DNA of 36,349 nt from a bacterium (GTDB lineage: Bacteria; UBP6; UBA1177; JAGLDR01): assembly GCA_023145475.1 (NCBI GenBank), contig JAGLDR010000118.1, forward strand, positions 1 to 36,349, given 5' to 3'. A program made the translations under genes and the position numbers. This document shows, one piece after another, positions 4,162-18,375 of this stretch (its first letter is position 1; each line of letters opens with the position of its first letter). Below the pieces are notes generated by a model. That model searched no databases. It saw nothing but the letters and a program-made list of their open reading frames with translations, and was not told the origin of the DNA.

Positions 4162-5097
4162 TTACTTATTCAAATAGAAGTTGCTAAAGAAGTTTCTTGC
4201 ACTATCTTCCGCCTCTTTCATCAACAAAAGGGCATCAGAAAAGTCAGAATTTGAAGCAGAAAAAACTCCGTGTCCTTGCACAATGACGACACCACACTCT
4301 TTAATTGCTGATGGAACCGTCTCCCACAAGCCGCCAACTCCTGATCCTGGCGCACCTGAAACAACGGGAATATCACCAAAAGCATCAGGATTGACAAGAG
4401 AGAGTGCAACGGCACTTCGCGGATGTCCGTGCGTGATAAATTGAAACTCTTTTGCTATCCTTTTGTGTGCTTCATATTCACTTGAGGGCGTTCCACCTTT
4501 ACACTCGCCATCCAGAGAACAGTGAACCATATTTCCTTCAAGGCTATCGAGCAAAGTCCCCGATGCTGAGATCTCTAAAACACCGTTCGGGTGAAATCTG
4601 CTGACATTTCCAAAAACAGAATCAACCATTCCTGAGGCTACCATCACTTTTCCTGCCTCAACTGGAGAAAAAACATCATCCATTTTTGGAAGAGCAACTG
4701 GCTCAAACAGGCGATTCAACAGAATATGTTTGAAATGCTTGTCGCTAACCATTCGAATAGTGGCGTCAACCTGCAAAGAGAAGGCAAGCGAGCTTATTTT
4801 CAAAAAAATTTCTGTTGCGTGTTCTCCTCTCGCATAAAACTCACCCGACGGCAAAACACCAGCGGACAAACCCTCTTTGAAAAGATGAATATCACCTAGA
4901 AACAGACCAGCTTCGCTATCTTTCGGCGTCACCATTGACAAACCTGACAATTCATATGATTTCAGAATAATATCAAGTGGATACATTGGAGTTGCCGTCA
5001 TCAAAAAGCCATCATTTTGAGGCACGATTGTTATAGATTCTTTATAAAAAAGCCTATGCGTTTCACACAGTTGCGGAATGGAATCAAAGGAGATCAT
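4162..5097 (-). CDS. Class II aldolase/adducin-family protein with ~150-aa N-terminal extension
   Basis: C-terminal half GNVSRFHPNGVLEISASGTLL...TPSSEYEAHKRI...THGHPRSAVALS...GHGVFSAS matches the class II aldolase/adducin fold, including metal-binding histidines. SD-like AGAGGA upstream. Confidence 0.82.
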   Translation of the reverse strand: MISFDSIPQLCETHRLFYKESITIVPQNDGFLMTATPMYPLDIILKSYELSGLSMVTPKDSEAGLFLGDIHLFKEGLSAGVLPSGEFYARGEHATEIFLKISSLAFSLQVDATIRMVSDKHFKHILLNRLFEPVALPKMDDVFSPVEAGKVMVASGMVDSVFGNVSRFHPNGVLEISASGTLLDSLEGNMVHCSLDGECKGGTPSSEYEAHKRIAKEFQFITHGHPRSAVALSLVNPDAFGDIPVVSGAPGSGVGGLWETVPSAIKECGVVIVQGHGVFSASNSDFSDALLLMKEAEDSARNFFSNFYLNK

Positions 5098-5464
5098 TCA
5101 AAAGTATCCTCTGCGCTTTTATCTTTATAGTTTTTCTTAATTGTCGTGCCAGTGGAACGACTGTTTCAAAATCAGGAAATTCCTCAGAAAATTGCATCAT
5201 TCTTCTAAGATTCTTTTCGTTGAAACTATTTCCATATCTTTCAACCAATTGTGTCGCCAGTGGTGTCACAATCTGCTTTCCGTATTCTGCTCGCTTGTTA
5301 TGAAGGATATTGTCATTTATCTTCTTGCCAACTTGCCAGTAGGTTAAGGTTAGAATGCTGTTTACTTGTGCAACTACTTGGTTTTTACTTTGCTCAATTA
5401 AAACAGCGAGTTCTGTGAAAAGTTGTTGCTCGTTCGTGTTCGATTTTACAATTTCTTTTGCCAT
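5084..5464 (-). pseudogene. Truncated DUF1016 (YhcG-type) N-terminal domain protein
   Basis: LTYWQVGKKINDNIL...GKQIVTPLATQLVERYGNSFNEKNLRRMMQFSEEFPDFETVVPLARQL is the DUF1016 N-terminal domain. Homology then stops, followed by RKTIKIKAQRILLNDLL* with no C-terminal nuclease domain; the 3' end overlaps the aldolase start. Confidence 0.8.
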
Positions 5465-5500
5465 AATATCACCTTTTTATACTTTTCTTCAAGTCACGCA

Positions 5501-5529
5501 ACTTTATCACTGCTACATTCGCATGTCAA
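5501..5529 (-). promoter_or_regulatory. Sigma70-type promoter of the truncated DUF1016 gene
   Basis: Minus strand TTGACA-17 nt (TGCGAATGTAGCAGTGA)-TAAAGT. Confidence 0.6.
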
Positions 5530-5533
5530 GTTG

Positions 5534-6415
5534 TCACGCTTTCTCTTCGCCTTTTAGTTTTTCCAGAATATCCTTAGCATCCATCTCTAATTTAGAGAAT
5601 GCAAACCACTTCTTACCTGCATCCTTAAGGCTTGCTCCAAAATGATAAACAACTTTGTTGTCAATAATCATAAATCTATCGTGTGCCGTAATCAGTTTTT
5701 TTAGCTCAATTTTAGGATATTGGATATTATGCTTCTGTAAATCTTGTTTTATGATTTTATCTATTGTTTTGGTATAGATAACAGCTTTCACATTTTTATT
5801 TCGCTTAGCCAATTGCTTGAAAACAGTATCATCAATATAGTTGTCAATTACAATTATTGATTTTTTTGCTGTACGAATAATATCTGCAATTAGCGTGTAG
5901 GCATCAAAAATCTGTCCATCATAAAAAATGTTCTGCTTTGGTTTTATCTCGTTTGCTTCCAAAGCATTAAAAATTTGTTCAAATTTATTATCTGTAATTA
6001 TTTGCCTTTTTTCTATAGTTTCAAGTCTCTGAAAAACACCTGCATTTATTGTAATGAATTTTTTCATATCCACAAATGCCTGCATAATTTGTATACTGAC
6101 CTGAATAGCAGTATCGCTTCGCAAAACAGCCGAAAGCATCGCTACGCCTTGCTCAGTAAATACATATGAGTTTATCGATGAATGTTTTAATTTTTTGAAC
6201 CGGTCGCAATTTGCGACCAGTTCATTTTTTTCTATGTCATTCAATTGAAATCTAAATAATATAGGGAAGCGTTTAATATTTCTTTTTACTTGTTCATTAA
6301 GTCTCTTTACTTCAATATTGTATAACTCTGCCAAATCTCTATCAATCATAACTTGTTGGTTCCGAATTGTGAAAATCCGACTTTGTATATTGTCTGCTTT
6401 ACTTATTTCATGCAT
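5534..6415 (-). CDS. ORF6N domain protein with C-terminal phospholipase-D-like domain
   Basis: N-terminal IRNQQVMIDRDLAELYNIEVKRLNEQVKRNIKRFP...FTEQGVAMLSAVL is ORF6N. C-terminal HDRFMIIDNKVVYHFGASLKDAGKKWFAFSKL is PLD-like. Start placed at MHEISKADN because the promoter lies downstream of the ORF's first ATG. Confidence 0.88.
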   Translation of the reverse strand: MHEISKADNIQSRIFTIRNQQVMIDRDLAELYNIEVKRLNEQVKRNIKRFPILFRFQLNDIEKNELVANCDRFKKLKHSSINSYVFTEQGVAMLSAVLRSDTAIQVSIQIMQAFVDMKKFITINAGVFQRLETIEKRQIITDNKFEQIFNALEANEIKPKQNIFYDGQIFDAYTLIADIIRTAKKSIIVIDNYIDDTVFKQLAKRNKNVKAVIYTKTIDKIIKQDLQKHNIQYPKIELKKLITAHDRFMIIDNKVVYHFGASLKDAGKKWFAFSKLEMDAKDILEKLKGEEKA

Positions 6416-6468
6416 ATCCACCTCTCTCAAACACCATCTTGCCCTATCAAATAGAACAAGAAAAAAGA

Positions 6469-6497
6469 AGTCTAACAAGCTGATATTTCTATGTCAA
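6469..6497 (-). promoter_or_regulatory. Sigma70-type promoter of the ORF6N-PLD gene
   Basis: Minus strand TTGACA-17 nt (TAGAAATATCAGCTTGT)-TAGACT. Confidence 0.6.
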
Positions 6498-6540: not shown

Positions 6541-6984
6541 TTATTTTTGCGTTGGAAGTGAAAGATTAAGCGTATCACGCCACTCAACAATGTGGCTTGT
6601 CGCCCACGCAACACCGTCTGTTTTGCTGTCAATCTCATAGATAATATGCAACTGCGGATAGATAAGCCAGCGACCTGCGTGCATTCTTACGGTATCAACT
6701 TTTTTGATGGCAGAGAGTGGAATAACCACCTCTTTTGCTGGTAACCACATAAGAAAAACAAGCTCAGTTTCGTAGAGTGCTAAAATACCCTTCCCTCGAA
6801 TTTGTTTGCCTCGTTTTGATGAAAAACCGGAAAAGTTGGCACTTTTATCAAGCAAAACCGCCTCTTCAGGATGTAATTCATCAAGTCGCGAAAAGCGCTT
6901 TGCTTTTATGTGGCGAAAGGAAAAAACAAGGAGAACAACAAGAAATAGTGATGATAAAACAAGAATATGAATCCAGATATCCAT
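6541..6984 (-). CDS. Small membrane-anchored hypothetical protein (possible PH-like domain)
   Basis: N-terminal TM helix IHILVLSSLFLVVLLVFSF; adjacent to the decarboxylase beta-subunit stop (about 1 nt gap). Confidence 0.65.
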   Translation of the reverse strand: MDIWIHILVLSSLFLVVLLVFSFRHIKAKRFSRLDELHPEEAVLLDKSANFSGFSSKRGKQIRGKGILALYETELVFLMWLPAKEVVIPLSAIKKVDTVRMHAGRWLIYPQLHIIYEIDSKTDGVAWATSHIVEWRDTLNLSLPTQK

Positions 6985-6985
6985 C

Positions 6986-8194
6986 TTAGAAAGGAATTAA
7001 TCCAAGGAGAATACCAGCAGCGATTGCAGAGCCGATAACACCAGCAACATTTGGCGCCATAGCGTGCATCAGAAGGTGATTCTCAGGATCTTCATGTCGG
7101 CCAACATGCTGCGCAACACGGGCTGAATCAGGAACCGCTGAAACACCGGCACAACCAATAATTGGATTGATTTTATTGCCATCTTTAAGGAAAAGATTCA
7201 TAAATTTAGCAAAGAGAACACCGCCAGTTGTTGCAATAACAAAAGAGAGTGCGCCTAAGATGAAAATAACAACAGATTTCGGGTTAAGAAAGTGAGCTGC
7301 TGCGGTACTCGCACCAACGGTCAATCCTATCAAAATTGTTGTAATATCAATCAGAGCATTAGATGCTGTCTTTGCAAGACGATCTGTCACACCTGACTCT
7401 TTCATTATATTCCCAGCCATCAGCATACCAATAAGTGGCAGGCCTCCAGGGGCAATCATTGTACAGAGCAAAAATGCAACCACAGGAAAAAACACCTTCT
7501 CTCTTTTCGAGACTTTCCGTGGTGGTTTCATACGAATAAGTCGCTCTTTTTTTGAGGTCAGAGCATAAATTATCGGTTGCTGAATTACGGGAACAAGCGC
7601 CATATATGAATACGCTGCAATGGCAATCGCACCGATAAGATGCGGAGCCATCAGACCCGAAATAAAGATTGAGGTTGGACCATCTGCACCTCCAATGATA
7701 CCGATACTCGCTGCCTCCTGTAAATTGAAAGCAACGCTCTCCCATCCCATCGAGACAAACCACGCATTCAGACCTGTTGCATCAAAAACGCCACCCATTG
7801 CGAGGGATATCAAAAATGCAGCAAAGATACCGATTTGAGCAGCACCACCAAGCAAAATAAGCTTAGGATTACTAATCATATAGGAGAAATCAGTCATCGC
7901 ACCAATACCAAAAAAGATAAGTGGTGGATAAATTCCCTTCAAAACACCGTAATAGAGATAGTTCATAACAGAACCATCGTCATAAACACCAATTTTGATG
8001 CCAGCCGCGGAAGGAATATTCCCCAGTAAAATACCAAAGCCAATCGGCAAAAGAAGGAGTGGCTCCCACCCTTTTGCAATTGCCAAATAGATAAAGGTAA
8101 TTCCAATCAGTAACATCAAAATGTTACCGAATGAAAGATGATGAAATCCTGTTGTCTGCCAAAACTGAAGGAATCCGTCTAATATAAGTTGCAT
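6986..8194 (-). CDS. mmdB: Sodium ion-translocating decarboxylase subunit beta
   Basis: 402-aa polytopic protein with GIGAMTDFSYMISNPKLILLGGAAQIGIF, GIIGGADGPTSIF and INPIIGCAGVSAVPDSARVAQ motifs of OadB/MmdB/GcdB; SD GGGGGAG. Confidence 0.96.
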   Translation of the reverse strand: MQLILDGFLQFWQTTGFHHLSFGNILMLLIGITFIYLAIAKGWEPLLLLPIGFGILLGNIPSAAGIKIGVYDDGSVMNYLYYGVLKGIYPPLIFFGIGAMTDFSYMISNPKLILLGGAAQIGIFAAFLISLAMGGVFDATGLNAWFVSMGWESVAFNLQEAASIGIIGGADGPTSIFISGLMAPHLIGAIAIAAYSYMALVPVIQQPIIYALTSKKERLIRMKPPRKVSKREKVFFPVVAFLLCTMIAPGGLPLIGMLMAGNIMKESGVTDRLAKTASNALIDITTILIGLTVGASTAAAHFLNPKSVVIFILGALSFVIATTGGVLFAKFMNLFLKDGNKINPIIGCAGVSAVPDSARVAQHVGRHEDPENHLLMHAMAPNVAGVIGSAIAAGILLGLIPF

Positions 8195-8202
8195 AACTCC
8201 CC

Positions 8203-8640
8203 CTATCCTATCACAATAAGAGCTTGTTTTTCTTGAACATTATCGCCTTCTGAAACATCAATCGACAACACCTTTCCGCTTAATGTAGAATTGATGTCGT
8301 TTTCCATCTTCATCGCTTCCATTACGGCAACTTTATCACCTGCTTTAACGATGTCACCAACCCTTACAAGCATTTTCAAAATAAGCCCTGGCATTGGAGC
8401 AACAATCGCGTCACCCATTGTCGCTGCTGCCGCTGGCATAGGAGCAGGAATAGAGTTTGCAGTTGGAGCAGTTTTCCGAGTCACTTTTGGAATGATAATC
8501 GGTGCATCTTCCCCTTCTGGATACTCTATCTGCACGGTTGTCGCTTTGCCGTTCACCACAACTGTTGCTGTCGTAACACCAAAATCTTTCACTTCGACTT
8601 CGTATTTTTTGTCATTGATATGCAAAGAATACTTTTTCAT
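8203..8640 (-). CDS. mmdC: Biotin carboxyl carrier subunit of the decarboxylase
   Basis: 145 aa; C-terminal biotinylation motif VMEAMKMENDI, Pro/Ala linker; SD AGGGAGAG. Confidence 0.93.
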   Translation of the reverse strand: MKKYSLHINDKKYEVEVKDFGVTTATVVVNGKATTVQIEYPEGEDAPIIIPKVTRKTAPTANSIPAPMPAAAATMGDAIVAPMPGLILKMLVRVGDIVKAGDKVAVMEAMKMENDINSTLSGKVLSIDVSEGDNVQEKQALIVIG

Positions 8641-8655
8641 TTTACTCTCCCTAAA

Positions 8656-11600
8656 TTACTTAGATACATGTATTACTCCATTAAACGATTGATATACTTT
8701 ATTTTCATATAAATAACTATCTCTAAAATATCGTTTCTCTCCCTCTATTGCTTCACCAACAAAAGAAGCTTCAAAATTTATTCTGTAGTTGTTGTTTTGA
8801 CAGCCAAGATAGACAAAATTGTCATCTTTCATCATTTCGCTATCTTCACAACTCACGCCGTTGGTGTAGACCACGGTCTCATCTCCCGCTTCTGTTCCGA
8901 GGTTTAGTATCTCAAATTTTGTCCGTTTACGCAACCAAAACCATTGCCAATAGGTCTCTTCTTCATATAGGAACAGTTTTTCATCTACAATCTCAAGGTC
9001 TTTCACTTTGTAACTGGTTTCGATTTCTCGTTCTAAAACAGGAGAATCACCACTGATATTCCATATTGAAACCTGTCTTCCATCTGCCACAAACAGTTTG
9101 CCGTTGGATATTCTGATGTTTCTCGGATTATCTGCACCAATTGAACCAATTCGAGTCAACTTACCATCGTCTATTTTGTAGATACGGATTTTATCGCTTG
9201 ATGCAGTGTAGAGTTTCTCTCCTAAAATTTGAATATTATTCACAGAATGACCAATCCATTTAAAGTGATCGTTTTCCAAACTTCCATCTTCTTCTATTTC
9301 TGCTGTTCTAATTCCCGTAAGTCCGCCAATAAAAAGTCTGTTTTCTTTTCCTGCGAGGGTGAATTTATAATCAAAATAACTGACGGTGTGGTAATTATAG
9401 AATTCAAGTGGTTCACACACACCATTTTGATAGCTTCCAGGCAAAACACTGTTTTCACTATCAACAATACAGTAGCTGCTCATCGCACCATAATGAGTTT
9501 CTGTGACAGGAATCTCAATATATTCAATTACAATATCGCTAACATTCTGAATTGTTGGATCAAAGACAAATGCTGGATGTGTTGTATTGCCATCCATAAC
9601 GGGGTTTGCTGCGACCAACTTGCCATCAACCTCTTGAATAATTACCTTTCTGAAATCGCCTTCAAGCGTAACGGACAGCTGCTCCCATATCTCTGCTTCA
9701 GTGTCAAATCGCCAGATGTCGTTCATTGCGCCACTGTTTGCATCCATCCCACCAACAAGAAAGATATAGTTTCCAGACTGTCCGAAATTGGCAATCTCTC
9801 TTGATGACGGAGCTTCATCTCCGACTGCTTCAAACAATTGATTTCCATCACCTTTTTTGAATGTTTGAATCGCGCCAGTATCATCCATCCCAATCAAAAA
9901 AAGCTTTTCTCCAACAGAAATCAGTTTTATCTTATCAAAAGAGAGATCAACACTTCCTCGCTCGGAGAGAGTATAGACTATTTTAGGGATATTATGAATA
10001 TCAAGCGCACCAGTAGGAGGGTTGTCAGCGGAGAGCAGAAAAAGGTGATCGCTATCATTCTCTTCTGCAATAAAAAAGATGCCTTCTGGTGTTGTTGTAA
10101 CTGTTTTAATAGTCTTAATCCCTTCATGCCATCCGGCAATTGTGCCAACTCTGTTCCAATCAACGCCACTTTCTGAGCTGTTTAATATAAGTGTGTATTC
10201 TGAGGCTGCCTGATCACCATCTTCTACAGCTACCGCAATCATTTTTGTAGGCGTTGCATCGGTAAAGAGCACCATCCTTCTATCGCGGCGTGGCGGAGAT
10301 ATTCGTTGCGCACCAAATAGGTATTCACCAAAACGATTTTCTATCGTCCAGCGACCAATATGATTTTGCGCCTCTGACAAAGGCGTGTTATCCTCTCCAA
10401 TAAGCAATCGTAACGGAATATCATAATAACAAGAATTACACAGCGGTATCTCCAGCAAACCTAATTTGTCCGGTAGCTGGAAAGGCTGAGTATTAACGGT
10501 CTTCGTGTGGTAATTAAGCGTGTTATACCCTCTGTTATATCTCGCGGAGCGGGCGTATTTATTGCTATTTGTTGAAGGAAAGTAAGCGTTATTAACGACA
10601 ATATCCTCTCCTTCGTTAATGCTATATGATGGAATCTCAGAAAGAGGTCTGTTTTCTACAACAGGTAATACCGAGGTCGAGAGTGCGTAATACATCGTAA
10701 ACTCTTCGTTATGGTCGCCACCGTTTTTAATGGATTGACAGATGGTTTGGTTTAAATCAATATAACAATTACTCTCTCTATACCAATCGGCTCGCCAATT
10801 CCAAATAGCCTTTTCACCACCAGTTGTTGCGACAACTGGTTTGTCCGCACCGTTATCGACACCAATTTGACCAACAGAATCAACAACAGTGATCCGGTGA
10901 TTCCAACTCTCTATAGACTCTTTTGAGAAATCATCACTTCCGTGGCTATAGCCAAAATGAAAGTTGGCAATTGCACCGCCAGTTTTGTTTGAAGTGGTGC
11001 AATAACCTGGTTTTCCCCACCAATCAAACTCTATGGTTTTCCGATAATCTATCGCACAGTAATGCACGGCTGCCTGACATGAGGCAACAGGAAATTCATC
11101 CTCTTTATAATGAACCGTCAATGAGTCACAACTCTCTGTTTCAAAACCACTATACTTCGGTAGTTTTGTATTTATCGTAACATATTTATCGTAATGATGT
11201 CTTCGCGGAAGTGGAAAAAAGTCTGTTCTTTTTAGTGGTTGTGGCTCAGACTTCACATTGGTTAGATAACTATTTGCAAAACCATCTCCTCCTTGGGTAT
11301 GATAATCACAGGCATCTCCAATTCCGTCTAAATCGTGATCTGGTTGCCATAAAAACTTTGATTGTACTCTAGGATAATTCCATCTCAAATTATAATTTCC
11401 CATTTTATGAAAGGCTGCACCTCCTTCATATTCACCATCAATCAATTTGAAAGAAGAAATTAATTCATTATATATATTAGCTTGCATCGGAGAATTACGA
11501 ATAGCAGAACAGTTATCACACTCATCACACACACCGTCACCATCACTATCTAATTGATTACTATTTTTATGATTGGGACAACAATCACATAAGTTACCAA

Positions 11601-13368
11601 TACCATCCCCGTCTGAATCAGATTGAGCCACATTAGGCACCACCGGACAATTATCACATCTATCATCGATACTATCACCATCACTATCGGATAAAAAGTG
11701 CTGTATTGATGCGTCAAGAATACACGCATCACATGCATCACCAACTCCGTCTCCGTCAGAATCGGTTTGATTCGGATTATATACCGTTCGGCAAACATCA
11801 CACCGGTTATCAACACCATCACCGTCGTCATCCAAATTAAGCTGAGAAATATCTCTCTTAAAAACACAGGCATCACAGATATCACCAACACCGTCTTCAT
11901 CACTATCAAATTGATGTGGATTTGCAATGTTGGGACAGTTATCAGCACTGTTCAATATCCCATCTCCATCGCTATCACTGGTTGTTTTTCTCAGACTTTC
12001 TCGTACTATTTCAGAGTGTTGCGATATAGAGGCAACAGGAGTAATCCAATTATATCCATGTGACAGAGTACGATCTTTTTCATCACTACCAATCTTATAG
12101 GTTGCAGATGAGAAAAAACAATCTCGATATCTTTGAGCGGCGGTAAAATAGAGATTGTTGTTTAATGTATCGCTCCAATGAATAAGACCTGCAATTTCTC
12201 CATCTTCATTAATTACAGGAGATCCAGAGTTTCCAGCTATTATTGGAAGATCATTAAAAAACTCCACAATCTCTGATGAAGAAAGAAGAGCATTTCTCTG
12301 CATATCACAGTCAGAAGTTGACGGATAGTGCGCCACATGTTCTGCTGTTGTTGAAGCTCCATACACAACTCCAGTTTGGGCTTTCATCGGCCACCCTGCA
12401 GGATGCCCAATAACAGCTATTTCATCATGGGGAAAAAGACCTTTTGCACTGAGTTGTGGATATGACAAAACCTGTTCTGATACACCAAACAAGTCAGCAA
12501 CAAATTCTCCTGGCAATTTATTTGTATCACTTCGCTGTAATTTGATGATAACGAAATCTGGATTTCGTCTGTTTAGTATTGTCTTTCCTGTTATCAGATG
12601 GTTTGCGCCAGCGACATTTAACCATCCATACTCCGCAACCCCTGTAAGTGTTACATAAGATCCATTATACAGAACATTTGAAATTTCTGTTCCAGAGTGA
12701 TCAACGGGAAAAAACATACTATCATTATCATCTATATTGGAGTGATTTTCGCACGGATTTCTTTCTGCGCCTTCATTCCTATAATTAAGACGCACTCCTT
12801 TATTATTTTCTAGATGATTCACATCGTAACAGTGGGCAACCGTTAAAAAGAGATCTTTTGCTATAAGAATTCCGCTACAACTTCCATTTATACCTTCAAC
12901 TCTTCCAACAAATTTACTCATATTTATAACATGCTGTGCAAAAGAAGAGGTAGAAAGTGACTCACCTGCTTCATAATCCTTTGGGGTGAAAAAAATACGG
13001 AAATCATCATAAGTATTCGATGAGCATCCAGAGGGAGCACACCAGAATTTCATTCGATCTTCACAAGATATAAAACTATTTACTTCCACGCCATTCCCAT
13101 ATGTTGGTTGCGGGCATATTGGCATACTGTAAGAGAAACGAGCAACACTTTCACCATCCAAATAGGGCTCGCCTGAATTCTCGTTCATCATACAAAATGC
13201 TCTACACTCATTGGAGAGCGAATCTACATTAAATTGGCATTCAGGAGCGGAGGGAGATGAATAAGGTATACTGTTTACACTGAGCATCTTTTGTGGAACA
13301 TCAGTAGCAAAAAGAGAGAATACAGAAAACAAAAACATGAAAAGCAATAAATGTAAAATAGATTTCAT
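8656..13368 (-). CDS. Large secreted multidomain protein: trypsin-like serine protease, thrombospondin type 3 repeats, Kelch/LVIVD-like beta-propeller repeats
   Basis: Signal peptide; GSCSGILIAKDLFLTVAHCYD (His), NPDFVIIKLQRS (Asp), IIAGNSGSPVINEDGEIAGLIHWSD (Ser); seven contiguous DxDxDG..xxCDxC repeats; Kelch-like YIFLVGGMDANSGAMNDIWRFDTEAEIWEQL; C-terminal GEKLYTASSDKIRIYKIDDGKL and NGKLFVADGRQVSIWNISG. Confidence 0.9.
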   Translation of the reverse strand: MKSILHLLLFMFLFSVFSLFATDVPQKMLSVNSIPYSSPSAPECQFNVDSLSNECRAFCMMNENSGEPYLDGESVARFSYSMPICPQPTYGNGVEVNSFISCEDRMKFWCAPSGCSSNTYDDFRIFFTPKDYEAGESLSTSSFAQHVINMSKFVGRVEGINGSCSGILIAKDLFLTVAHCYDVNHLENNKGVRLNYRNEGAERNPCENHSNIDDNDSMFFPVDHSGTEISNVLYNGSYVTLTGVAEYGWLNVAGANHLITGKTILNRRNPDFVIIKLQRSDTNKLPGEFVADLFGVSEQVLSYPQLSAKGLFPHDEIAVIGHPAGWPMKAQTGVVYGASTTAEHVAHYPSTSDCDMQRNALLSSSEIVEFFNDLPIIAGNSGSPVINEDGEIAGLIHWSDTLNNNLYFTAAQRYRDCFFSSATYKIGSDEKDRTLSHGYNWITPVASISQHSEIVRESLRKTTSDSDGDGILNSADNCPNIANPHQFDSDEDGVGDICDACVFKRDISQLNLDDDGDGVDNRCDVCRTVYNPNQTDSDGDGVGDACDACILDASIQHFLSDSDGDSIDDRCDNCPVVPNVAQSDSDGDGIGNLCDCCPNHKNSNQLDSDGDGVCDECDNCSAIRNSPMQANIYNELISSFKLIDGEYEGGAAFHKMGNYNLRWNYPRVQSKFLWQPDHDLDGIGDACDYHTQGGDGFANSYLTNVKSEPQPLKRTDFFPLPRRHHYDKYVTINTKLPKYSGFETESCDSLTVHYKEDEFPVASCQAAVHYCAIDYRKTIEFDWWGKPGYCTTSNKTGGAIANFHFGYSHGSDDFSKESIESWNHRITVVDSVGQIGVDNGADKPVVATTGGEKAIWNWRADWYRESNCYIDLNQTICQSIKNGGDHNEEFTMYYALSTSVLPVVENRPLSEIPSYSINEGEDIVVNNAYFPSTNSNKYARSARYNRGYNTLNYHTKTVNTQPFQLPDKLGLLEIPLCNSCYYDIPLRLLIGEDNTPLSEAQNHIGRWTIENRFGEYLFGAQRISPPRRDRRMVLFTDATPTKMIAVAVEDGDQAASEYTLILNSSESGVDWNRVGTIAGWHEGIKTIKTVTTTPEGIFFIAEENDSDHLFLLSADNPPTGALDIHNIPKIVYTLSERGSVDLSFDKIKLISVGEKLFLIGMDDTGAIQTFKKGDGNQLFEAVGDEAPSSREIANFGQSGNYIFLVGGMDANSGAMNDIWRFDTEAEIWEQLSVTLEGDFRKVIIQEVDGKLVAANPVMDGNTTHPAFVFDPTIQNVSDIVIEYIEIPVTETHYGAMSSYCIVDSENSVLPGSYQNGVCEPLEFYNYHTVSYFDYKFTLAGKENRLFIGGLTGIRTAEIEEDGSLENDHFKWIGHSVNNIQILGEKLYTASSDKIRIYKIDDGKLTRIGSIGADNPRNIRISNGKLFVADGRQVSIWNISGDSPVLEREIETSYKVKDLEIVDEKLFLYEEETYWQWFWLRKRTKFEILNLGTEAGDETVVYTNGVSCEDSEMMKDDNFVYLGCQNNNYRINFEASFVGEAIEGEKRYFRDSYLYENKVYQSFNGVIHVSK
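11509..11977 (-). repeat. Coding tandem array of thrombospondin type 3-like calcium-binding repeats
   Basis: Seven tandem units in translation: DSDGDGILNSADNCPN, DSDEDGVGDICDACVF, DDDGDGVDNRCDVCRT, DSDGDGVGDACDACIL, DSDGDSIDDRCDNCPV, DSDGDGIGNLCDCCPN, DSDGDGVCDECDNCSA. An eighth, DHDLDGIGDACD, is displaced to 11305..11340. Confidence 0.93.
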
Positions 13369-13397
13369 ATCAATAACCTCTCACATAAAATCAACAA

Positions 13398-14972
13398 CTA
13401 TTTCTCTTCCGTCAACGGACAAATCCCCGTCTCTTCACAATAACACTCCCAATCACGCATCAGTGTTGCTGTTCGACCAATCATTTTCCAGAGATGCCAC
13501 TTGCCCCAAAAAACGTTATAACCCATCAATGAAACATTAGCATATCCTGGTGTTTGTTCAAAAACAGGATTGGAACAGTAGCTCTTTTTTGTATCAAATC
13601 GGTAAAAGCACCCTTTAAAATCAGCCTGCCAAGACTCATAAAGTATTTGAAAAGCCTCTGTATAGGAAACGATATTCCCTTGAAGCATATTGGGAGAGAC
13701 CGCCCATGTTGTCTCATCAGATGGAGTTATCAAGTGTTCGGTGTAAATCGGATTGTTAATGTCACTCAAGTCAACTTCAACAAAGATTTTACTGTTATCA
13801 ATATTATAAACCAATCTATATTCATTTTCTACATCAATACGAGGTTCATGTCCTTGCTCAAACTCTCCATCTTCAATCGGGCGATTAATGTGAAGACAAT
13901 TGCCAATATGCTTTGGAGCCGTTCGCAAATCACAATAATACATATCTCGATTATTGGTTATAAAAGTCAGATGGTCACCAACAATGTTTCCCTCTTGCGC
14001 AAGGTGGTAATCTATTCCACCAATGGTTTGCCACTCCCACACACCTGCTTTTGCGTATTTAACCTCGGTTTCATTGCTATCTGCACCTTCAGAAACTTGG
14101 ATTAAGACCCATTGTTCGCTGGAAAGAGCTGGACGAGTCATAAAAGAATTGTGCTTCTCATTGTCGTAAATTAGTTCATAATAATATTTACCATCTTTTT
14201 TTAATGCAGAAATGACAAAAGAGTGATAAAAAGGCTGTTCCTCTGTTCTTCTTCGATCAAACAGAGGATACACATAGCGATTTTCATTAAAAGCTAATTG
14301 TCCTGCATTAGCACTGACCGTAGAATACTCATCTTTTTCTGGATTATATTCAATAACCCTTCCGCTATGTCCGAAATCCATGCCAGCAACACCATTACTC
14401 ATTCCGTGTGACCAGACGATACCCATGCTTGAAGTAAACTCATTCACCGTCAACCATCTATCGCACTTACTCACAAGCGTCTTTATCTCTTTTTGTGTCT
14501 TTGCTTTCATGTCTGGCAACTTACAAGGCCACGGATAACACTCCCGCTCTAAAGTTTGATTGGGATCTTTCTTCTGTGCCGCTAAATAGACTTGATATTC
14601 AGTCCAGTTGTCCCACTCCCAGATGTTTCTTACACACTGCGGATCAGTCTCTGTTGGCGTGTCACAACCTGGACGGCAAAAAGTTGATTTGCCATCTTTA
14701 TCTTTGAATGGAAAGGGTGTTTTTATAACATTTTCAGGAATACGAAGGTCTAGGCATCGCTCGTCAACATCTGCGTCAGTTGTAATATCATTGTCGAGAT
14801 CGGGCACTTCGGGAGCCTCAGTGTCCGTGTCGCGATCAGTGAGTGTATCATTATCCATGAACGGGGAATTTATATCTACATCACTGCTGCTATCGGCGTC
14901 TATTGTTACCGTTTTATCTGAACAACCATAACAAAAGAAGAAAAGTGATAATAACAAGAGGAACTTCCTCAC
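13398..14972 (-). CDS. Envelope lipoprotein with Asp-rich linker, possible beta-propeller
   Basis: GTG start at 14972..14970 preceded by AAGGAG (6-nt spacing). Translates MRKFLLLLSLFFFCYGCSDK (lipobox), then the linker DADSSSDVDINSPFMDNDTLTDRDTDTEAPEVPDLDNDITTDADVDE. Confidence 0.85.
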   Translation of the reverse strand: MRKFLLLLSLFFFCYGCSDKTVTIDADSSSDVDINSPFMDNDTLTDRDTDTEAPEVPDLDNDITTDADVDERCLDLRIPENVIKTPFPFKDKDGKSTFCRPGCDTPTETDPQCVRNIWEWDNWTEYQVYLAAQKKDPNQTLERECYPWPCKLPDMKAKTQKEIKTLVSKCDRWLTVNEFTSSMGIVWSHGMSNGVAGMDFGHSGRVIEYNPEKDEYSTVSANAGQLAFNENRYVYPLFDRRRTEEQPFYHSFVISALKKDGKYYYELIYDNEKHNSFMTRPALSSEQWVLIQVSEGADSNETEVKYAKAGVWEWQTIGGIDYHLAQEGNIVGDHLTFITNNRDMYYCDLRTAPKHIGNCLHINRPIEDGEFEQGHEPRIDVENEYRLVYNIDNSKIFVEVDLSDINNPIYTEHLITPSDETTWAVSPNMLQGNIVSYTEAFQILYESWQADFKGCFYRFDTKKSYCSNPVFEQTPGYANVSLMGYNVFWGKWHLWKMIGRTATLMRDWECYCEETGICPLTEEK

Positions 14973-15391
14973 TATTTTCTCCTTAAAGCGGACCATCTAT
15001 TATATGTCTGAATTTGTGACTGTCTTTGCGATGCCTGCCATCCTGCATTGTTATATTCAGGATTGTGAGTCAAAGGCATTTGTACATTTTCTTCACTAGT
15101 GTAGAGATAGAGCGCAAAAGCGATTGCTGCTAACTCATCATCGTCTGATGAAGTAGCGAGGCTCTCGTTTACCTCTTGTGTAACTACTTTGTTAGAAGTG
15201 GTGGGAGCTGTTTTTTTCACTTTTGGGGACTCATTATCAAGAAAAACAAACATTTTCAACACAAAAGCAAGTGCAATCAAGCCAAGCATTACCACAGTTA
15301 TACCAACAATTGGCATCACCACTCGGATGACATCAATATCACCTTGAGTCGCGACACTCCCTATAAGATGCGCAATCTGAATTAGATGCAT
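14972..15391 (-). CDS. Decarboxylase gamma/delta subunit (OadG/MmdD family)
   Basis: 139 aa; single TM helix, then DELAAIAFALYLY and the C-terminal NRWSALRRK typical of OadG-type subunits; SD AGGAGG. Confidence 0.8.
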   Translation of the reverse strand: MHLIQIAHLIGSVATQGDIDVIRVVMPIVGITVVMLGLIALAFVLKMFVFLDNESPKVKKTAPTTSNKVVTQEVNESLATSSDDDELAAIAFALYLYTSEENVQMPLTHNPEYNNAGWQASQRQSQIQTYNRWSALRRK

Positions 15392-15400
15392 AACGCCCTC

Positions 15401-16936
15401 CTAGAGTGGAATGTTGCCATGCTTTTTAGCAGGCAAACTATCTTGTTTAGTGGCAAGCATTTCTAAAGCACGAATAAGGCGAGGACGAGTTGTTCTCGGC
15501 TCAAAAATATCATCAATAAATCCGTGTCGTGCAGCATTATAAGGATTGGCTACATTTTCGCTGTAGTCAGCCTCTTCGTCTGCTATAAACTTCACCTTAT
15601 CTTCTGCTGCTGCGAGCTCTCTGCCTTTCAAAATCTCAATTGCCCCTTTGGCGCCCATAACGGCGATTTCCGCTGTTGGCCACGCAAAGTTCATATCACT
15701 TCTCAGGTGTTTTGAGCTCATAACAATGTAGGCTCCACCGTATGCTTTTCTCATGATTATTGCGAGCTTTGGAACGGTTGCTTCACTGTAAGCATAGAGC
15801 ATTTTTGCGCCGTGTTTGATAACACCACCGTACTCTTGTGTCGTTCCTGGCATAAATCCTGGAGTATCAACAAGAGTTATCAACGGAATGTTGAAACTGT
15901 CACAGAATCGGATAAATCGAGCACCCTTCATTGAGCTATTGATATCTAAAACACCTGCAAGAACATTGGGCTGATTTGCAACGATACCAACACTTCGACC
16001 GTTTAAACGAGCAAAACCTATAACGAGATTTGCTGCATACGCTGGTTGAATTTCAAAAAACTCACCATCATCAAAAACAAGAGATATAACATCTTTCACA
16101 TTGTAACTTTTATTAGGTGAAAGTGGAACTATCTTGTTGAGAGTCTCTTCCATTCTATCGTGCGGATCATGTGTTTCAACAAAAGGAGGGTCCTCCATGT
16201 TGTTTGATGGCAGATAGCTGAGAAGTTGACGAATTGCTTCGATTGACTTCTCTTCCGTCTCATGCACAAAGTGGGTAACACCTGATTTATTCATGTGAAC
16301 GGCAGCACCACCAAGTTGATCAACGGTAACATCTTCGTGTGTCACTGTTTTTACAACTTTTGGACCAGTCAAAAACATATATGAATTTGTTTCTGTCATA
16401 AAGACAAAATCTGTTAACGCGGGGCTGTAAACAGCACCACCAGCACAAGGCCCGTAAATAGCTGATATTTGTGGAATTACACCACTGGAAAGAGTATTTC
16501 TTTTGAAAATTTCACCATAGCCATACAGACTGGTAATTCCCTCTTGAATACGGGCACCACCACTGTCATTCATACCAACAACAGGAACTCCTGTGCTCAT
16601 TGCAAGGTCCATTATTTTAGAGATTTTTTGTCCAACAACCTCACCTAAACTGCCACCTTGAACAGTAAAGTCTTGTGCATAAAGACAAACTTTTCTGCCA
16701 TTAATTGTACCAAACCCTGTTACAACAGCGTCGCCAAGTGGGCTGTTTGGTCCTCGTCCAGCTCGAAAGGTATCAACCTCTTCAAAACTTCCTGCATCAA
16801 GCAGTTTTGCAATTCTCTCACGAGCGGTCAACTTCCCTTTTGCATGCTGCTTCTCAATGCGAAGCTCTCCGCCGCCAAGATGTGCCTGCTCTCTTTTTGC
16901 TCTGACTTGAGCTAATTTCTCTTCAATAGAAACCAT
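15401..16936 (-). CDS. mmdA: Methylmalonyl-CoA decarboxylase alpha subunit / propionyl-CoA carboxylase beta-type carboxyltransferase
   Basis: 511 aa; [83 protein letters not shown]. Confidence 0.96.
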
Positions 16937-16954: not shown

Positions 16955-17356
16955 CTATTTTTTCTCTTCTGTTATTTCAACCAACACTCGAGACATTTTC
17001 GGGTGTAAAAACGCAATCTTTGTATGATGGGCACCAACTCGTGGCTCTTCATCAATCAGACGAACACCTTTTGCCTTCAAATCAGCAAGCTCCGCCTCTA
17101 TATCATCAACAGTAAATGCAAGATGATGCATTCCTGCACCTTTTTTCTCAATAAACTTTGCTATCGAACTCTCTGGAGATGTTGGCTCTAAAAGTTCAAT
17201 ACGACTCTCGCCTGAAGAGAGAAAAGCAACCTTAACCTTTTGGTCTTCAATAATCTCCTCTCCTTCAAACTCCAATCCAAGAACATCAGTATAAAAAGGA
17301 AGAAATTCTGCAATGCTTGGAACGGCAATGCCTACATGGTTAATTTTTTTACTCAT
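16955..17356 (-). CDS. mce: Methylmalonyl-CoA epimerase
   Basis: NHVGIAVPSIAEFLPFYTDVLGLEFEG...GAGMHHLAFTVDDIEAELADLKAKGVRLIDEEPRVGAHHTKIAFLHPK; SD GGAGAG 6 nt before the second ATG. Confidence 0.95.
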   Translation of the reverse strand: MSKKINHVGIAVPSIAEFLPFYTDVLGLEFEGEEIIEDQKVKVAFLSSGESRIELLEPTSPESSIAKFIEKKGAGMHHLAFTVDDIEAELADLKAKGVRLIDEEPRVGAHHTKIAFLHPKMSRVLVEITEEKK

Positions 17357-18311
17357 TCTCATCTCTCCAGCTAATTTTCAAATGTGATTCAATCTTTTGC
17401 AGGACTTGGTACAAATTAAGCTCTCCGCTAAGGATTCTTTCAATCCAGTCATTGAAGATACTATGCCCTTTAAAAATTGCAAGAATATCTGACCCTGTTT
17501 TTTCTTGCATCATCTGCATTATCTGTGATTCGACACGAGGACGCCATATAGTATCTCTGTTTTTCTTAACGAAATCAGCCCTTTGCGACATCTGCTCGAC
17601 CAAGGAAGCTACCCCTTTTCTCTCTGTTGCAACTGTTTCAACAATAGGAGGAATCCAGTCGAGTTGTCGCCTATTTAGTTCAATAATCATCTGCAGTTCA
17701 GCAAGAAGTCGCTCTCGTCCATCTTTATCTGCCTTATTGACGACAAATATATCGGCAATTTCCATAATTCCTGCTTTTAATGCCTGCACATCATCACCCA
17801 TTCCAGGCACAAGAACAAGAAGAACGGTATCGGCAGCCTTCATAACATCAATTTCACTCTGCCCTACACCGACAGTTTCAATGATAATAATATCAAAATT
17901 AAAATTTCTGAGCAGCGAAACAACATCCATTGACGCGGGAGCAAGACCGCCAAGACTTCCTCTGCTGCCCATTGAACGAATAAAAACCTCAGGATCGGTG
18001 TTGTGAGATGACATACGAATTCTGTCACCTAAGATTGCACCACCACTAAAAGGAGAGCTTGGATCAACAGCAATCACTGCCACTCGCTTTCCTGCTTTTC
18101 TATATTCGACAATCAATCCATCCGTTAAGGAGCTCTTTCCTGCACCAGGAGGTCCAGTAATTCCAATAACTATCGACGGATAATCAGATACCATTGAGGC
18201 AAGCAACTCTGTTGCACGCTGTCTATCATGCTCTATTGTTGAAATCAATCGCCCAAGTTTGCGGTGATTAATCGTTCCATCATTTTTTAGAACGCCACTA
18301 TCGTCTCTCAT
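17349..18311 (-). CDS. meaB: Methylmalonyl Co-A mutase-associated GTPase MeaB
   Basis: 320 aa; ITGPPGAGKSSLTDGL, VDPSSPFSGGAILGDRIRM, FIRSMGSRGSLGGLA, IIETVGVGQSEIDV, VNKADKDGR. Confidence 0.96.
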   Translation of the reverse strand: MRDDSGVLKNDGTINHRKLGRLISTIEHDRQRATELLASMVSDYPSIVIGITGPPGAGKSSLTDGLIVEYRKAGKRVAVIAVDPSSPFSGGAILGDRIRMSSHNTDPEVFIRSMGSRGSLGGLAPASMDVVSLLRNFNFDIIIIETVGVGQSEIDVMKAADTVLLVLVPGMGDDVQALKAGIMEIADIFVVNKADKDGRERLLAELQMIIELNRRQLDWIPPIVETVATERKGVASLVEQMSQRADFVKKNRDTIWRPRVESQIMQMMQEKTGSDILAIFKGHSIFNDWIERILSGELNLYQVLQKIESHLKISWRDENE

Positions 18312-18346: not shown

Positions 18347-18375
18347 ACTATAAAGATGGAAGAGGAGCGTGTCAA
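18347..18375 (-). promoter_or_regulatory. Near-consensus sigma70 promoter of the meaB-mce-mmd operon
   Basis: Minus strand TTGACA-17 nt (CGCTCCTCTTCCATCTT)-TATAGT, 36 nt upstream of the meaB ATG. Confidence 0.75.

Follow-up and report, generated by a model that had tools for sequence, protein, structure and literature searches.

The window, by which we mean the whole 36,349-nt stretch of DNA analysed, carries on its minus strand an operon for a Na+-pumping decarboxylase in which two large genes for predicted surface proteins are embedded. When the coordinates were re-derived, the minus-strand gene order proposed in the earlier note (meaB-mce-mmdA-mmdD-lipoprotein-1570-aa protease-mmdC-mmdB-hypothetical) was recovered, with all genes co-directional (Table 1). 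The intergenic gaps, described there as short, were 9, -1, 29, 15 and 8 nt counted from mmdA onward. The alpha subunit, the beta subunit, the biotin carrier and the small gamma/delta membrane subunit, that is, all four parts of a Na+-pumping decarboxylase, lie in this one locus. The neighbouring meaB and mce genes fit methylmalonyl-CoA as the substrate, yet mmdA, mmdC and mmdD score under the family cut-offs. Since mmdA and mmdC are each present in one copy in the source genome, the interrupted locus is not a second operon. We also noted that the mmdB ORF is 402 aa here and 560-634 aa in most relatives of the order (L063, L064, L067-L079, L081), where it has an extra ~200 aa at the N-terminus.

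Table 1. Genes of the interrupted operon and domains of the giant protein, in minus-strand order.
Feature	Coordinates	Strand	Evidence
meaB	17349-18311	-	
mce	16955-17362	-	
mmdA, carboxyltransferase subunit	15401-16936	-	TIGR01117 E 1.5e-231, below that family's cut-off; Carboxyl_trans
mmdD / OAD_gamma subunit	14972-15391	-	OAD_gamma E 1.3e-8; C-terminus alignable with relatives' mmdD
Lipoprotein gene	13398-14972	-	524 aa from GTG; between mmdD and protease gene
Giant modular protein (protease) gene, 1570 aa	8656-13368	-	Between lipoprotein gene and mmdC
Variable head, trypsin-like S1 domain	12124-12879	-	Residues about 164-415; Trypsin_2 E 8.5e-8, Trypsin E 1.1e-7
TSP3 repeat spacer	11449-11982	-	Residues about 463-640; TSP_3 E 2e-21; alignment breakpoints
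Constant chassis, residues 641-1570	8659-11448	-	Alignment of 28 homologues; AlphaFold2; Kelch profile hits
mmdC, biotin carrier	8203-8640	-	Biotin_lipoyl E 3.1e-16
mmdB, Na+-transporting beta subunit	6986-8194	-	OAD_beta E 2.4e-143; TIGR01109 above cut-off
Hypothetical gene	6541-6984	-	

A clean insertion in the mmd operon

The best candidate for the lipoprotein start is a GTG at 14972, which is preceded by AAGGAG and overlaps the TAG stop of mmdD by 1 nt (TAGTG). The ATG at 14996 chosen by the ORF caller falls inside mmdD, and the GTG was preferred. At the other end of the insert, mmdC has its own Shine-Dalgarno sequence, GGGAG, within the 15-nt gap after the protease stop. No strong terminator was found inside the operon, and RNA folds predicted at the three junctions did not stand out from shuffles. 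Promoter-like matches end at 14999, in the 3´ end of mmdD (10/12), and at 18347, upstream of meaB (11/12), with such matches only mildly more numerous than in shuffles (54 vs 38). Given that the lipoprotein start overlaps the mmdD stop and that mmdC retains its Shine-Dalgarno sequence, operon read-through was most likely kept, and transcription from the mmd promoter most likely continues across the insert.

No terminal or flanking repeats were found around the insert, whose GC content (0.37-0.43) differs little from that of the operon. The earlier note had seen no mobile-element remnants, which holds inside the operon but not just downstream of it, where there is an AT-rich islet (5084-6478). 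The islet, with a GC content of about 0.32-0.34, contains a truncated DUF1016_N gene and an ORF6N-domain gene, both of types often carried on mobile DNA. Twelve nucleotides at the lipoprotein start (AAATAGTGAGGA) also occur at the mmdD-mmdC junction in one family of relatives. This match may be a remnant of the original site, or it may reflect convergence on a stop codon plus a Shine-Dalgarno sequence.

The locus was compared with 24 other genomes of the order, all from families other than that of the source genome, which is the one representative of its own family. The distance from the mmdA stop to the mmdC start is 6,761 nt here versus 407-476 nt, room for mmdD alone, in all 20 of the assessable relatives (those with mmdA and mmdC measurable on one contig). 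Three genomes of the same phylum have similar spacing (302-490 nt). As had been expected of decarboxylase genes, mmdA, mmdD, mmdC and mmdB are uninterrupted in 20/20 assessable relatives; in the source genome, a clean insertion interrupts the operon. The linkage to the decarboxylase is thus unique to the source genome, as far as sampled, which speaks for capture in this lineage rather than for a conserved functional link. The location of both genes elsewhere in relatives had been set in advance as the outcome that speaks against a conserved link, and elsewhere, in many copies, is where their homologues sit. Of the two readings offered in the earlier note, it is therefore the capture that gains support, while co-regulation of a surface function with propionate/succinate metabolism has no conservation of linkage behind it.

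One version of the latter reading is that the exoprotease and the Na+-pumping decarboxylase are expressed together, matching peptide release to propionate/succinate fermentation. The tight co-directional gaps (-1, 29 and 15 nt), the absence of a strong internal terminator and the intact catalytic triad of the S1 head agree with such a functional insertion, but we consider it improbable, as 1/21 of the order's assessable genomes has the insertion and the pair lies elsewhere in relatives that share the pathway. Read-through co-transcription in this one species is possible. With capture as the preferred reading, one unit would have landed exactly between mmdD and mmdC in the lineage of the source genome.

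Heads, spacer and chassis of the giant protein

Judged from alignments and domain profiles, the giant protein is modular, with a constant C-terminal chassis, a TSP3 spacer and an N-terminal head that differs among homologues. The head in the window is an S1 trypsin-like peptidase with an intact His179/Asp271/Ser381 triad and Pfam scores above the cut-off. The C-terminal chassis (~900 aa) comprises a conserved domain followed by Kelch and LVIVD-like propellers; its AlphaFold2 model is of moderate confidence (pLDDT 73, pTM 0.43), and only Kelch propellers were matched among solved structures. Alignment breakpoints place the joint between head and chassis in the TSP3 spacer across homologues, with local alignments beginning in or near this region.

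The heads of 36 chassis proteins fall into ~17 groups lacking BLAST similarity to one another. Those named by Pfam are trypsin S1 (window), papain C1 (L213, L217), C25 with its propeptide (L270) and reprolysin M12 (L281), the counts of additional C1 and C25 members resting on BLAST clustering. The heads of L253, L265 and L288 have an HExxH motif. As many heads are without a Pfam family, to call all of them enzymes would go too far, and cluster 4 is non-enzymatic in appearance. Assignment of the cluster-1 head to the glycoside hydrolases, from a motif seen by eye, was unsupported; the solved-structure search matched TSP3 only.

Heads and chassis are incongruent. The chassis of L228 (C25) and L282 are 77% identical while their heads have no detectable similarity; conversely, the heads are 68% identical and the chassis 21% for L228 and L240, and 56% and 22%, respectively, for L251 and L262. 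On the chassis tree, 10 head changes are needed to account for five recurring head types, and AU tests (method "quick", with the groups named from the heads before the tree was built) rejected the C25, cluster-1 and C1b head groups as chassis clades, with p from 1e-4 to 1e-64. The genomes are draft assemblies in which TSP3 repeats could falsely join paralogues in single cases. However, several head/chassis combinations recur in independent genomes, which counts against false joins; the cluster-1 head is on one chassis type in L220 and L226 and on the other in L272 and L282. We suggest that heads have been exchanged repeatedly, probably through recombination within or close to the TSP3 spacer with its many repeats.

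Homologues of the giant protein are multicopy in relatives. Two C-terminal chassis pieces are present elsewhere in the source genome, one on C221 (80% protein identity, most of the middle missing, beside a 58%-identical lipoprotein) and one on C222 (70-76% identity). Full-length relatives of the window protein are near 40% identity, compared to 70-80% for these two pieces, which would fit partial copying of units within the source genome. Orphan or internally deleted chassis C-termini adjoin lipoprotein genes at L091 15855-16841, L093 336-1274 and L096 14636-14818, two of the three showing this 70-80% identity to the window protein.

The lipoprotein and its probable partnership with the chassis

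The lipoprotein has a signal peptide, a CYGC lipobox, an Asp-rich linker extending to about residue 72, a Cys-rich N-cap and a predicted beta-propeller. By inspection, the lipobox reads FFCYGC with the Cys at residue 17, as in bacterial lipoproteins. Sequence searches against solved structures gave no match, while the AlphaFold2 model is a beta-propeller with a Cys-rich cap (pLDDT 90.8). Foldseek returned generic propellers. The paralogue family is large, being present in every member of the order, at up to ~20 copies per genome, and absent from three genomes of another family in the same phylum. Two palindromes, CCCCCTTAWTAAGGGGG (7 copies in 2.35 Mb) and GGGCGACCACANNGGGTCGCCCCTAC (4 copies), were found, with 5/11 copies at lipoprotein paralogues, in or just before the part encoding the signal peptide (L091 14208 and 14312, L093 143, L098 6220, L099 13905); the lipoprotein gene of the window has neither. 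Paralogues in the source genome at L098 4538-6295 and L097 11539-13398 are co-directional with pdxS-like and type II secretion pseudopilin-like neighbours, both named by eye from sequence.

The pairing of lipoprotein and chassis is conserved across the order, a feature that the earlier note had missed, as it had the exchangeable N-terminal enzyme. Reading ~80 regions revealed 32 adjacent same-strand lipoprotein/chassis blocks, in relatives and elsewhere in the source genome, with gaps mostly <50 nt and the genes in either order. In only one block (G000:C221) do co-directional genes lie within 50 nt on either side, indicating that embedding in a tight operon is unusual for the pair. Lipoprotein and chassis distances are correlated (Mantel r 0.72, p 2e-4, n=21 pairs), with a contribution from genome relatedness. 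In addition, L228, L262 and L282 have lipoprotein neighbours that are 78-80% identical despite the unrelated heads, pointing to a partner relation with the chassis and not with the head. The lipoprotein is most likely an outer-membrane partner or anchor that would bind the chassis.

The lipoprotein could instead be an inhibitor of, or immunity partner to, a specific protease head. The genes are adjacent, and the propeller has a weak structural match to DAIP, a propeller protein whose structure was solved with a fragment of thermolysin, but that match is one among hundreds of generic propellers, and lipoprotein similarity tracks the chassis, not the freely varying heads. This makes a head-specific role improbable, and we retain the chassis partnership.

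A proposed two-gene surface unit and its relation to known systems

We think it likely that the inserted genes belong to a head-swapping, two-gene family of surface exoenzymes and that one copy captured the mmd operon for expression by read-through. The unit would have been amplified across this order of uncultured bacteria, with the giant protein serving as a constant anchor/adhesion chassis that presents an exchangeable N-terminal enzyme via the TSP3 spacer, and the lipoprotein propeller going with the chassis, presumably for display at the outer membrane. With somewhat less assurance, though still leaning in its favour, we propose an order-wide system in which a propeller chassis (~900 aa) and its cognate lipoprotein carry exchangeable heads from at least four unrelated protease families, with the heads being replaced through recombination at the TSP3 spacer and whole units being able to enter housekeeping operons cleanly and borrow their expression. 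Misassembly of the contig is very unlikely to have put the pair inside the operon: the genome is a draft of 246 contigs and has further stretches that match the C-terminal chassis sequence at about 85% DNA identity, but both junctions fall exactly at gene boundaries and retain their Shine-Dalgarno sites, the mmd order is right on either side, mmdA and mmdC have no other copy, the protease frame remains homologous to paralogues as far as its own stop codon and the sequence at the mmdC junction is unique.

No description of the lipoprotein/chassis family was found in the open-access literature. The myxococcal TSP3 cohesion proteins (MtsC, NF047638) share a TSP3 repeat stretch (E 2.5e-32), but the repeats alone match, at 112 bits versus a cut-off of 350, which places the window protein outside that family. 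A search of the genome for the type IX translocon protein SprA gave no match, and neither did the positive control. The window protein had no Pfam or NCBIfam hit to a Por secretion C-terminal domain, as would mark type IX secretion cargo.

Proteins with a constant anchor and a variable enzyme are of a kind already known. Type IX secretion cargo, such as the gingipains, have unrelated catalytic N-terminal domains, including C25, and one conserved C-terminal part for surface localisation. The family described here likewise has varied N-terminal catalytic domains, C25 among them, on a common C-terminal part, but here that part spans about 900 aa, contains propellers and comes paired with a lipoprotein. 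Here, four unrelated protease families share the same very large chassis, and the partner gene goes with that chassis, providing a direct handle on surface-enzyme diversification in uncultured fermenters. As in the Na+-translocating methylmalonyl-CoA decarboxylase operon mmdADCB, the four core subunits are all recognisable in the window, but here 6.3 kb of genes for predicted surface proteins stands between mmdD and mmdC. The locus is a clean natural case in which a surface-gene unit has joined a housekeeping operon and left it apparently intact.
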